Shown piece by piece: positions 4,844 through 36,612 of a stretch of 37,718 bases of DNA. The DNA lies in the NCBI GenBank assembly GCA_018065105.1, contig JAGHTX010000056.1:1-37718 (forward strand). Reading direction: 5' to 3'. How positions within the stretch are numbered: the stretch's first letter is position 1; each line of letters opens with the position of its first letter. The position numbers and the translations under genes were made by a program. The notes beneath the pieces are model-generated. The model did not search any database and was not told the origin of the DNA. It saw only the letters and a program-made list of their open reading frames with translations. The DNA comes from Bacillota bacterium. GTDB taxonomy: Bacteria; Bacillota_I; Bacilli_A; Erysipelotrichales; Erysipelotrichaceae.

Positions 4844-4861
4844 ATTCGATAAAATTTTTAT

Positions 4862-5461
4862 ATGCCAAGAATAAAAGAAGATTGTGTTAACACAATAGAA
4901 ATTAAAAAAAGTAAATTTATCACGTATTTACACCGAACAGATAACGAAGAAGACGCCAAAGAATTCTTAAAACGCATAAAAAAGGAACACCCTAGTGCAA
5001 CCCATCACTGTACCGCTATGATTATTGGTGACATGATGCGTTCTAACGACGATGGAGAACCTTCACAGACCGCAGGACATCCCATGCTGGATGTTTTGAT
5101 GCATCATCAAATGAACGATGTATTAGCCGTTGTAGTTCGTTACTTTGGTGGAATTAAATTAGGAACTGGCGGTCTTGTTCGTGCGTATGCTGGAAGTGTA
5201 CAAGAAGCTTTAAAAAGTGCTACCCTTACGGAAAGTACCATCTTCCACGAATACGAAATCCGTTTTTCTTACGACCTGATTGGTAAAATCGATGCCTACT
5301 TTAGAAAAAATGGAATCGAGATTACCGAACAAGACTATCAGGAAAAAGTCGTATACCGTTATCTATGCCTAGAAGACATTTCTAGCGATATTCAGGAAAT
5401 ATCCGGTGGAACTATTGTACCTACCTTTATTCGCGATAAAATTAGCGAAAAAACGCTTTAA
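4862..5461 (+). CDS. YigZ/YvyE (IMPACT, UPF0029) family protein
   Basis: The 199-residue protein has the IMPACT-family N-terminal domain with the conserved stretches ATHHCTA, DDGEPSQTAG and VVVRYFGGIKLGTGGL, followed by a small C-terminal ferredoxin-like domain (about 135-199). Length and order match YigZ of E. coli and YvyE of Bacillus. Eukaryotic IMPACT acts in translation control, but the bacterial role is not settled. No clear ribosome site precedes the ATG, which lies 18 nt after the patatin stop, so translation probably depends on coupling. Confidence 0.9.
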   Translation: MPRIKEDCVNTIEIKKSKFITYLHRTDNEEDAKEFLKRIKKEHPSATHHCTAMIIGDMMRSNDDGEPSQTAGHPMLDVLMHHQMNDVLAVVVRYFGGIKLGTGGLVRAYAGSVQEALKSATLTESTIFHEYEIRFSYDLIGKIDAYFRKNGIEITEQDYQEKVVYRYLCLEDISSDIQEISGGTIVPTFIRDKISEKTL

Positions 5462-32374: not shown

Positions 32375-33148
32375 CTATTCTTCATTGAAGATTTCATCAA
32401 TATCTTCTGAAGTTAATTCAACCAATTTTTGATAGTATTCTTCTTGACTCATATCGCCTTTTTCTACGATTTCCTTAATGTTTCCATCCAGTACATACAA
32501 TGTCTTATTTGAATAAGAAGCAATTTGACAGTCGTGTGTTACCACAACTACTCCTGTTCCTTTTTTGTTTAATTCTTTAAAGATCATCAATACTTCGTGT
32601 GCGTTTTTACTATCTAGGTTTCCTGTTGGTTCATCGGCAATGATTAGCTTTGGATCGTTCACAAGTCCACGGCATACTGTCGCTCTTTGTACTTGTCCTC
32701 CACTGCATTCTCCTGGCAGTTTCTTTAATAGTTTTTCAATGTGGCAAAGTTTGGCAACTTCTTCGACTTTTTGTTTAATATAAGATTGGCTTTTTCCAGA
32801 TACGTATAGTGGAATACCAATGTTTTCTTCCATGGTTAGGGTATCAATTAATGTTAGGTCTTGGGAAATATATCCTAAGTTTTCATTACGGAATTTTGAT
32901 AAATATTTATCTTCCATTCCAGCAGCATTTTCTCCATCTAGATACATACCACCTTTTGTCGCAAAGTCTAATGTGGATAAAATTGTTAGTAGGGTACTTT
33001 TTCCGGCTCCAGATGGTCCCATGATAGCTACGAATTCTCCTTCGTAGATGGTTACATTTGTTGGATGTAGAGCTTCCATTTCATTCGGTGTCCCTTTTCC
33101 ATATACACGAGTAATGTTTTGTGCTCTTAATAATTCTTTCTTTTCCAT
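32375..33148 (-). CDS. ABC transporter ATPase (first ATPase)
   Basis: The 257-residue MacB/BceA-type ATPase has Walker [10 protein letters not shown] (44-52), Q96, signature CSGGQ (148-152), Walker B LIIADEP with Glu173, D-loop SGNLDS-type TGNLDS and switch His205 in VVTHD. It is a paralogue of the next gene, with an equivalent tail (GDMSQEEYYQKLVEL). It starts 1 nt after the permease stop. Both should be cytoplasmic partners of the permease. Confidence 0.93.
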   Translation of the reverse strand: MEKKELLRAQNITRVYGKGTPNEMEALHPTNVTIYEGEFVAIMGPSGAGKSTLLTILSTLDFATKGGMYLDGENAAGMEDKYLSKFRNENLGYISQDLTLIDTLTMEENIGIPLYVSGKSQSYIKQKVEEVAKLCHIEKLLKKLPGECSGGQVQRATVCRGLVNDPKLIIADEPTGNLDSKNAHEVLMIFKELNKKGTGVVVVTHDCQIASYSNKTLYVLDGNIKEIVEKGDMSQEEYYQKLVELTSEDIDEIFNEE

Positions 33149-33149
33149 A

Positions 33150-34445
33150 CTATTTTTCTCCTACAATTGATTTCTTAATGGTATGTCCGTAAGTAAATGC
33201 GGTCACGATTCCAGTAAATACGACAACGAATACGAATAAGCCTAGCATGAATGCACACATATTGAAGTCAAATGCGCCTGCTTGTACATATCGATATCCG
33301 ATTGGTGCCATAATCAACAATGGTAATACCAATAGAGTTGTATATACCAGGAAGATTTCATAACGCATGATTTTCATTAATTCTTTTCTTGTGTATCCAA
33401 TTTTCCATAAGTTTAAATAATAAACAGCTCTTTGTTTCGCTTGTACGCTTAAATCAAAAGTTACAGTCATAGATAATAATACAACCGCGATGATATATCC
33501 GGCAAAAGAAAGAATCATTTCATTGATTTTGTCCGAATAAACCATAGTTACGAAGAACATCATGATGATAGAGAACATCATAATTAAGATAGTCATCTTA
33601 CTTGTTAGGATTGTACTACTGAAATTGGACATTGATACGGTCTTATACTTTTGCGTAAAGGAATTTTTGAATTTCCATTTGAATACCAATTTTGAAATAA
33701 CTCCATTCACAATTCCGTATAATCCAACAAAGGCAAAGAACAATTGTGTACTTAGGTTTTGATAATCCATATTTGGAAGAATGATCAATACAATACTTCC
33801 AACGTATAATAAGACAAATACGATATCTGGAATTTTAGAAACAGGTGCTCTGTTAATGATTTTTGCGGTATTTCTTGATGCCAACAATTCTTTTACATCA
33901 ATTCGGAATACATAAGCACAGATATAGAAAACTAAATATACTAAGATAACCCCGATAATGATAAACGATTGAATTAGCGTTGTTCCTTCCACCGACTGAA
34001 TGGTTGTATGCATAATTGAAGATACAAATTGGAAGAATACTTGTACACCAAACCAACCTACGATCAATCCTGGGATACATGCCAATAAGAATAAGAATGC
34101 AGTTTGCATTAAGAAATAGATAATAATTTGGAATGTACTTGCTCCAGATACACTTAAAATCGCAATCTCATTTTTCTTATTATAAATATAGTTGTTGTTG
34201 ACGTAGAACATCAAGAAACAACAGAAAACGATGATTACCATATTTAAGTAGTCACTTGCTGGAACGGCCGCAAACATATTTGGAAGACTTTTTAAATCTG
34301 TATTAACTTGGTCTACAGTTAATGCCTTTCCATTGGATGTTGCCGTAAAGATAAAGCTAATTGCGATTGTTGTAGTCATTACGATCATATAGAACGCAGA
34401 TGACTTTAAATCCTTTCTTATCATTTTTAAAGCCAATCGAAACAT
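33150..34445 (-). CDS. FtsX/BceB-like ABC permease lacking the large external domain
   Basis: The 431-residue membrane protein has about ten hydrophobic segments arranged as in BceB: one N-terminal helix, three helices around 70-140, two pairs in the middle, then the last four helices. It has the family's cytoplasmic contact region (KKNEIAILSVSGAS) after helix 2. BceB proteins are about 640 residues because of a 200-residue external domain between helices 7 and 8; here that domain is missing. Substrate and role (peptide antibiotic sensing, lipid or protein release) are unknown, and no two-component system is near. It is the first gene of the operon, starting after AGAGGTGAT, with a cre box in the leader. 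Confidence 0.87.
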   Translation of the reverse strand: MFRLALKMIRKDLKSSAFYMIVMTTTIAISFIFTATSNGKALTVDQVNTDLKSLPNMFAAVPASDYLNMVIIVFCCFLMFYVNNNYIYNKKNEIAILSVSGASTFQIIIYFLMQTAFLFLLACIPGLIVGWFGVQVFFQFVSSIMHTTIQSVEGTTLIQSFIIIGVILVYLVFYICAYVFRIDVKELLASRNTAKIINRAPVSKIPDIVFVLLYVGSIVLIILPNMDYQNLSTQLFFAFVGLYGIVNGVISKLVFKWKFKNSFTQKYKTVSMSNFSSTILTSKMTILIMMFSIIMMFFVTMVYSDKINEMILSFAGYIIAVVLLSMTVTFDLSVQAKQRAVYYLNLWKIGYTRKELMKIMRYEIFLVYTTLLVLPLLIMAPIGYRYVQAGAFDFNMCAFMLGLFVFVVVFTGIVTAFTYGHTIKKSIVGEK

Positions 34446-34554: not shown

Positions 34555-34583
34555 TTGAAAAAGCTTCATTTATCTTATATAAT
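34555..34583 (+). promoter_or_regulatory. Promoter of the rRNA methyltransferase gene
   Basis: TTGAAA (34555-34560) and a perfect TATAAT (34578-34583) are exactly 17 bp apart. The expected start of transcription (about 34589-34591) coincides with the ATG at 34590, and no ribosome site exists, so the mRNA should be leaderless. Confidence 0.8.
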
Positions 34584-34589
34584 TTCTTC

Positions 34590-35900
34590 ATGATTGAATT
34601 ATTAGAAAACTACAAACAAGATATGAAAGAATATCTTAAAGATGAATATGAAGCCTATATTGAATCTTTCGAACACGATTCTTATGCCGGTTTGCGTGTA
34701 AACACAAATAAAATCAGTGTCGAAGAATTCCTTGAGATTTTCCCTTTTGATTTAGAACCAATTCCTTGGACAAGCGATGGTTTCTATTATAATAGTGAAG
34801 ATCCCGTAACGAAACACCCTTACTATTATGCCGGACTTTATTATATCCAGGAACCTTCGGCTATGTTACCAGCTCAAGTATTGCCGGTTGAAGAAGGAGA
34901 ATGGGTATTGGATACCTGTGCTGCCCCGGGAGGGAAATCAACAAAACTGGCGACAAAGTTAAAAAATACAGGGGTTCTAGTTTCCAATGATATTTCAGCC
35001 TCTCGATGCCAGGCGCTGATCAAAAATCTTGAACGTTTTGGAACGAAGAATATGATTGTCACAAGCTGTGATATTGATAAATTGGTCGAATACTTCCCAA
35101 ATACTTTCGATAAGATTTTAATCGATGCCCCTTGTAGTGGGCAGGGAATGTTTCGTAAAGAAAAACATTTAATCAAGGCCTATGCAGAACACGATGATTC
35201 CTATTATGCACCGATCCAAAAAGGAATTATTGAAAACGCCCTAAAATTATTAAAGAATGGGGGAAAACTTGTTTATTCTACTTGTACCTTCTCGGTAAAA
35301 GAAGATGAAGAAGTCATTCAATATGCCTTGTCTCTTTGTCCAGAATTAAGAGTACTACCAATTGAGCAATGTACCGGTTTTGTTTCCAATGAATATGGAA
35401 CTAAATTATTTCCTCACCGTATAAAAGGAGAAGGTCATTTTGTTTCCTTGCTTCAAAAAGGGGACGCAGAAGAAAGTTCTTATAAAAAGTCGAAAGAAGA
35501 AAAATTTGATTATGAAGCGATTCATCTAAAAATGAAGGATGCCCACCAAGAATCAATCAAAGATAACTTATATCTCGTACCAAATTTAAATATCGATACA
35601 AAAGGTCTTCGAATTCTTCGTTCTGGTCTTTTGCTGGGAGAACAGAAAAAGAATCGTTTCGAACCAAGTGGTGCCTTAGGATTGGCTTTAACCATGAAGG
35701 AATGTAATAACTGTATCAATCTAAAGGCAGAAGATACTCGAGTCATCAAATATTTAAAAGGAGAGACAATTGATACAAAAGATCTAAAGCCAAAAGATGG
35801 TTTAGCTCTAATTTGTGTAGATGGATTTCCTCTTGGTTTTGCGAAAGTGTCAAAAGGTGTTTGTAAGAATAAATACCCGAAAGGATGGATTTACCGATGA
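34590..35900 (+). CDS. 16S/23S rRNA m5C methyltransferase, RsmF/NOL1-NOP2-Sun family
   Basis: The 436-residue SAM-dependent enzyme methylates cytosine C5 in rRNA. The SAM-binding loop is APGGKS (112-117), the assisting cysteine is Cys182 in DAPCSG, and the nucleophile is Cys232 in STCTF. A C-terminal extension (about 290-436) with FPLGFAKVSKG resembles the RNA-binding (PUA-like) part of RsmF-type proteins of Gram-positive bacteria. The ATG has no upstream ribosome site and lies 6 nt after the -10 box. The next gene, an rRNA pseudouridine synthase, overlaps it by ATGA, giving an rRNA-modification operon. Confidence 0.93.
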   Translation: MIELLENYKQDMKEYLKDEYEAYIESFEHDSYAGLRVNTNKISVEEFLEIFPFDLEPIPWTSDGFYYNSEDPVTKHPYYYAGLYYIQEPSAMLPAQVLPVEEGEWVLDTCAAPGGKSTKLATKLKNTGVLVSNDISASRCQALIKNLERFGTKNMIVTSCDIDKLVEYFPNTFDKILIDAPCSGQGMFRKEKHLIKAYAEHDDSYYAPIQKGIIENALKLLKNGGKLVYSTCTFSVKEDEEVIQYALSLCPELRVLPIEQCTGFVSNEYGTKLFPHRIKGEGHFVSLLQKGDAEESSYKKSKEEKFDYEAIHLKMKDAHQESIKDNLYLVPNLNIDTKGLRILRSGLLLGEQKKNRFEPSGALGLALTMKECNNCINLKAEDTRVIKYLKGETIDTKDLKPKDGLALICVDGFPLGFAKVSKGVCKNKYPKGWIYR

Positions 35901-36583
35901 GATTAGATAAGTTTTTAGCCGATATGTCGTTTGGAACTCGTAAAGAAGTAAAACAGCTTATTAAAGAAAAACGAGTTCAAATTAATGGAAAAATAGTCAC
36001 CAAAGCAGATTTTAAAGTAGACTTCGAAGATGAAGTTTATGTAGATGATGAACGAATCGAATATGTAGAATATGAATACCTAATTTTAAATAAACCTCAA
36101 GATTATGTATGTGCATTGGAAGATCGTAGATATCCAGTCATTATGGAATTGATTGAAAGTATTCGAAAAGACTTAGTTCCAGTTGGAAGATTGGATGTCG
36201 ATACCGAAGGATTGATTTTAATCACCAATGATGGGCAACTGAATCACAAATTATTAGCCCCAAAAAGCCATGTAGATAAAACATATTATGTAGAAGTGGA
36301 TAATCCAATTCCAGAGAATGCAGTAGAAATTTTTTCAAAGCCAATGGATCTGGATGATTTTATCACTCAGCCAGCAAAATTAGAGATTCTTGATGAGACC
36401 AGCGCAAATTTAACAATTAGTGAAGGAAAATTCCACCAAGTAAAACGTATGTTTGAGAAAGTAGGTTGTACAGTTACATATCTTAGAAGAGATCAATTTG
36501 GTCCATTAGAATTAGGTGACTTAGATATTGGTGAATATAGAGAATTATCACCAGAAGAAGTCGAAGCATTAAAAAATTGTTAA
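35897..36583 (+). CDS. 16S rRNA pseudouridine synthase, RsuA family
   Basis: The 228-residue enzyme converts a uridine in rRNA to pseudouridine. An S4 RNA-binding domain (about 1-55, MRLDKFLADM and KRVQINGK) comes first, then the catalytic domain with Asp100 in GRLDVDTEGL and the C-terminal KFHQVKRMF motif typical of RsuA/RluB/E/F. I place the start at 35897, where the S4 domain begins and ATGA overlaps the previous stop; AAAGGATGG lies upstream. An in-frame ATG at 35885 would add four residues. Confidence 0.93.
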   Translation: MRLDKFLADMSFGTRKEVKQLIKEKRVQINGKIVTKADFKVDFEDEVYVDDERIEYVEYEYLILNKPQDYVCALEDRRYPVIMELIESIRKDLVPVGRLDVDTEGLILITNDGQLNHKLLAPKSHVDKTYYVEVDNPIPENAVEIFSKPMDLDDFITQPAKLEILDETSANLTISEGKFHQVKRMFEKVGCTVTYLRRDQFGPLELGDLDIGEYRELSPEEVEALKNC

Positions 36584-36584
36584 T

Positions 36585-36612
36585 AACTCAGTTTTTAAGA
36601 GCTGAGTTTTTT
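36585..36612 (+). terminator. Terminator of the rRNA-modification operon
   Basis: AACTCAG (36585-36591) pairs perfectly with CTGAGTT (36602-36608) and is followed by TTTT. Confidence 0.85.

Follow-up and report, generated by a model that had tools for sequence, protein, structure and literature searches.

Does transcription of the rsmF gene in this Erysipelotrichaceae bacterium begin directly at the start codon and, if so, does the absence of a leader serve a purpose for an enzyme that modifies rRNA? The question was raised by a sequence-only reading of the window, i.e. the whole stretch of 37,718 nucleotides that was analysed, which predicted a leaderless mRNA for this gene. The features on which the prediction is based, together with the gene on the far side of the intergenic region, are the following.

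34555–34560, forward strand: −35-like hexamer TTGAAA, matching the consensus at 5 of 6 positions
34578–34583, forward strand: −10 hexamer TATAAT, 6 of 6 matches, position relative to the start codon kept in orthologues
34584–34589, forward strand: discriminator TTCTTC, 6 nt between the −10 box and the ATG, with a pyrimidine at −1
34590–34592, forward strand: start codon ATG, coinciding with the transcription start (+1) predicted from the promoter geometry
34590–35900, forward strand: gene for a putative RsmF-family (NOL1/NOP2/sun) rRNA m5C methyltransferase of 436 amino acids (PF17125, PF01189, PF17126, PF13636, TIGR00446)
33150–34445, reverse strand: divergent gene for an FtsX-like ABC permease with a Shine-Dalgarno (SD) leader

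Promoter and start codon of rsmF

The sequence TTGAAA, 17-nt spacer, TATAAT, TTCTTC and ATG had been given exactly in the sequence-only reading, including its coordinates. Between positions 33000 and 37000, TTGAAA-17-TATAAT is the top promoter match (11 of 12 positions). Promoter-like sites generally occur at chance density in this interval (15 found versus 19.0 ± 3.6 in shuffled sequences), and taken by itself the site is weak evidence for a leaderless start. Because a single site proves little, relatives were compared. The lack of a ribosome-binding site that had been noted at rsmF was likewise borne out: no match of at least 4 nt to AAGGAGGTGATC precedes ATG 34590, versus an SD of at least 4 nt in 29 of the 34 ORFs called in the window. 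Upstream of this ATG the frame stays open over no more than 39 nt (IFEKASFILYNFF), within which neither ATG, GTG nor TTG occurs.

Translation could alternatively begin inside the gene, as the sequence-only reading had itself considered, and an ATG is present at Met12 (34623). However, an alignment of ten orthologues shows almost no variation at residues L4, Y8 and M12, which identifies ATG 34590 as the start and assigns residues 1–11 to the protein, and the match to PF17125 already starts at residue 6. The internal start was excluded on these grounds and is extremely improbable.

Conservation of the promoter spacing in relatives

Comparison of the promoter–ATG distance among relatives, which had been proposed along with the prediction, revealed the 6-nt spacing in dozens of them. 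The comparison set comprised 93 rsmF orthologues from Erysipelotrichaceae; relatives named in an independent collection belong to the same family, for example Faecalicoccus pleomorphus. We assigned 69 orthologues to a leaderless class, 20 to an SD-led or operonic class and 4 to neither, in a classification that consults the upstream sequence in choosing the starts. Within the leaderless class the spacing is 6 nt in 60 orthologues, 7 nt in 3 and 8 nt in 6. Since the choice of starts had made use of the upstream sequence, the count was redone with starts set by homology only, on 69 non-redundant upstream regions (less than 70% alike) and with a TANNNT box of at least 4/6 matches. The box lies at exactly 6 nt in 43 of these 69 regions, while every other spacing from 0 to 35 nt is represented 0–7 times (mean 2.1). 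The spacing is conserved where the other upstream sequence is not; the nearest species (L002, 84% protein identity) keeps TATAAT-6-ATG and differs in the remaining upstream region. An extended −10 element (TGn) is found in 34 of the 69 leaderless-class orthologues, and matches to the −35 element are poor in most rsmF orthologues. We dropped the pyrimidine at −1 as evidence for a leaderless start, as T or C occupies this position in 66/69 leaderless-class and 17/20 SD-class orthologues and does not separate the classes.

A promoter further upstream might be used in vivo, with the TATAAT beside the ATG being incidental; the AT-rich intergenic region and the chance density of promoter-like sites over these 4 kb speak for such a leadered message. 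It would, however, carry no SD before the ATG, and the 6-nt spacing is conserved amid upstream sequence that is not. Moreover, in seven orthologues (L005, L006, L045–L047, L241 and L259) the rsmF ATG follows the end of a terminator stem at a distance of 18–28 nt, which is too short to accommodate a leader and an upstream promoter. We consider the leadered message very unlikely as the explanation, although an extra upstream promoter might give such a message besides a leaderless one. The conserved spacing strongly supports the leaderless message originally predicted: with high probability, a sigma-A-type promoter is fused to the rsmF coding sequence and gives rise to a leaderless mRNA, one of a minor leaderless class in this lineage. 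At L005, L006 and L045–L047, as well as upstream of a LysR gene (L115) and a nuclease-like gene (L117), the terminator hairpin lies immediately next to a −10 box and its start codon, and the whole arrangement from terminator to gene start, promoter included, occupies ~45 nt.

The 24 of 93 orthologues outside the leaderless class count against the leaderless reading. In a tree of 157 proteins, the Erysipelotrichaceae rsmF orthologues form one clade (support 98), and the leaderless label requires at least 14 changes, so that the leaderless state appears to have been gained and lost and not to be essential. Elsewhere in the class the arrangement varies between families. In one family with small genomes (f8), the distance between box and start codon is precisely 6 nt for 14 of 18 rsmF orthologues, as judged by eye. 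Three further families (f9, f13 and f14) have rsmF orthologues with leaders, mostly containing an SD, and SD leaders also predominate in Lachnospiraceae (L136 onward), where the orthologues were surveyed by eye and not formally counted. In the sister family f2, the rsmF upstream region often reads TATAAT-N7-8-GTG with GGTGA (L011–L018, L020, L023, L024 and L030), and an ATG follows ~9–12 nt further on, mostly in frame with the GTG. This geometry would correspond either to a very short SD leader that starts at the SD itself or to a leaderless GTG start.

Predicted leaderless genes elsewhere in the genome

The genome-wide counts were obtained from pattern searches and from a 450-kb genome sample. 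Promoter-to-ATG spacings in the sample (408 ORFs) cluster distinctly at 6 and 7 nt. TATAAT-N0-25-ATG as the only pattern gave too many matches to be useful. The stricter pattern TTGA-N18-20-TATAAT-N3-12-ATG occurs 20 times versus 2 for the reversed pattern; most of these matches open only short frames and were therefore filtered on ORFs. TATAAT-N6-ATG was found 65 times versus 26 for the reversed pattern, and the N10 control gave 51 versus 43. The corresponding numbers in a relative (G021) are 65 versus 2 and, for the N10 control, 14 versus 3. When sites inside longer reading frames had been discarded by judgement, about 29 plausible gene starts remained from the 65 in the genome under study, among them those of genes for LysR, IspH, DnaE, MATE, PolY and TetR proteins.

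The idea that rsmF is uniquely leaderless was therefore rejected, as a spoU homologue, ispH and ~26 others have the same geometry. The spoU homologue, encoding a SpoU/RlmB-type RNA methyltransferase (L130:9204-9920; L268–L286), has a leaderless spacing of 6–7 nt here and in the 18 genomes most closely related to this one; in more distant relatives it is SD-led. For ispH, the closest relatives likewise show a leaderless geometry, with a spacing of 6 nt or nearly so, whereas an SD precedes the gene in most of the others. Judged by sequence likeness, the leaderless genes of G021 (L443–L492) include uvrB, dnaE, ligA, rnc, miaA, tsaC, rsmG and priA. The window itself holds a second leaderless candidate at 4850–5461 on the forward strand, where TAAAAT (4850–4855) and TTTTAT precede ATG 4862 without an SD; its product is a UPF0029/IMPACT (YigZ-like) family protein.

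Comparison with known leaderless systems

Zheng et al. (2011) described a "TA-led" class of genes with TANNNT ~12 nt before the start codon, present in 56 of 209 Firmicutes genomes and concentrated in Lactobacillales and Mycoplasma (PMC3160421). Their survey also notes TGn before the −10 box for leaderless genes of low-GC genomes. The window rsmF resembles this class: the first base of its TATAAT lies 12 nt before the ATG, where ~10–13 nt are given for the first T of TANNNT, it has no SD, and TGn occurs among its orthologues. The promoter geometry is also unusually well conserved, and from its sequence rsmF is very likely leaderless. Erysipelotrichaceae are absent from the passages of the survey that were consulted; here, in addition, the orthologues of single named genes were followed. 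A literature search, with some sources available in part, yielded no report of leaderless genes in Erysipelotrichia, and for Clostridioides difficile only ~15 potentially leaderless genes are described (PMC7438776).

In Deinococcus, −10 motifs adjacent to ORFs were shown by experiment to drive leaderless genes (Zhong et al. 2025, PMC12340547). There, a −10 motif at a fixed distance of a few bp before the ORF acts as promoter of a leaderless mRNA, and the motif at rsmF would do the same. Differences exist in extent and in promoter structure: roughly one third of the genes follow this arrangement in Deinococcus-Thermus, whereas it marks a minor class in the SD-dominated genome studied here, and the window rsmF has a good −35 element, in contrast to the Deinococcus-Thermus arrangement.

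In this SD-dominated lineage of gut Firmicutes, leaderless transcription appears to be conserved gene by gene. Both leaderless and SD-led orthologues exist for rsmF, the spoU homologue and ispH, and their direct comparison makes it testable whether leaderless initiation serves ribosome-modification genes especially or reflects neutral promoter placement. For genome annotation, start callers that rely on the SD would misplace such starts.

RNA-modification enzymes among predicted leaderless genes

The sequence-only reading had further suggested that the message of an rRNA-modifying enzyme could be translated preferentially when ribosomes or initiation are disturbed. As a regulatory purpose, this would mean that disturbed or immature ribosomes or initiation factors favour leaderless mRNAs, so that rsmF and other RNA-modification genes are preferentially translated when modification is lacking, i.e. 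a feedback. RNA-modification enzymes account for 5 of the 29 strict leaderless genes in this genome (RsmF and RlmA-like, RlmB/SpoU-like, TtcA-like and TilS proteins) and for 4 of 46 in G021 (MiaA, TsaC, RsmG and an RlmI/RlmK-like methyltransferase), several of these assignments lying under equivalog cut-offs. Roughly 2% of genes encode RNA-modification enzymes, which was assumed as the background rate. Against this assumed rate, the binomial probability is p = 0.0003 for 5/29; for G021 it is 0.06, calculated with 3/46 before the fourth enzyme was recognised. The category was picked post hoc, after seeing the data. The excess is a lead only, compatible with the functional idea.

Besides these numbers, a feedback is favoured by the leaderless spacing of the SpoU enzyme's own gene, found here and in the 18 genomes closest to this one, and by the relaxed initiator-tRNA selection that a review describes for E. 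coli without RsmF (PMC7949028). The post hoc category and the assumed background weigh against it, as do the unrelated functions of most leaderless genes here (LysR, IspH, MATE, DnaE, PolY, TetR) and the SD leaders of rsmF in many relatives. Preferential translation as a purpose is not specific to rsmF, since most of the ~29 leaderless genes are unrelated to ribosomes. We regard the feedback as unlikely. Speculatively, and in our view improbably, RNA-modification enzymes could be preferentially leaderless throughout Erysipelotrichaceae and a related family of the class, with under-modified or stressed ribosomes, more tolerant of leaderless initiation, raising their own maturation enzymes. If true, this would be a translation-level feedback made from promoter placement alone. 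The leaderless arrangement of rsmF can be explained without invoking special regulation.

Encoded proteins and the probable two-gene message

The window protein belongs to the RsmF family, as judged from its domains, and is a putative rRNA m5C methyltransferase. Like RsmF (YebU) and other NOL1/NOP2/sun enzymes, it has the complete RsmF-type architecture, with N-terminal (PF17125, 106 bits), RsmB/F catalytic (PF01189, 165.5 bits), first C-terminal (PF17126, 60.3 bits) and PUA-like (PF13636, 66.2 bits) domains, all scoring over their cut-offs; the cut-off of TIGR00446 is passed as well. The PCSG and TCTF cysteines are invariant in the orthologue alignment. Unlike the E. coli and Thermus types of RsmF, however, it stays under the cut-offs of the two NCBIfam equivalog models for m5C1407 RsmF of these types (NF008898, 246.8 versus 588 bits; NF041567, 328.3 versus 690 bits). 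Downstream of rsmF, two further features were found.

35897–36583, forward strand: gene for an RsuA-family rRNA pseudouridine synthase (S4 and PseudoU_synth_2 domains, TIGR00093)
36585–36608, forward strand: terminator-like hairpin and subsequent T run, at the end of the predicted two-gene unit

The rsuA start overlaps the rsmF stop codon by ATGA (35897). Because of this overlap and the hairpin downstream of rsuA, the leaderless message probably carries two rRNA-modification genes, with rsuA as the second. Of the 67 loci scanned (orthologues and paralogues, some truncated at contig ends), 26 have the two genes side by side.

In the proposed mechanism, RNA polymerase would use TTGAAA-17-TATAAT and start at the A of ATG 34590 or no more than ~1–2 nt away from it. 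The resulting leaderless mRNA would encode the RsmF-family rRNA cytosine-5 methyltransferase and then the overlapping RsuA-family pseudouridine synthase. Recognition of a 5′-terminal AUG with initiator tRNA is a route of leaderless translation known from other bacteria; here it would probably proceed by 70S ribosomes, and rsuA would be translated by coupling via the ATGA overlap.

A second RsmF-like paralogue in the genome (G000:C134:14716-15984; L057) shares 40% identity with the window copy and has a different upstream sequence. The window RsmF is ~50% identical to Lachnospiraceae enzymes versus 31–42% to the family's other RsmF, a closer likeness that may point to horizontal transfer.
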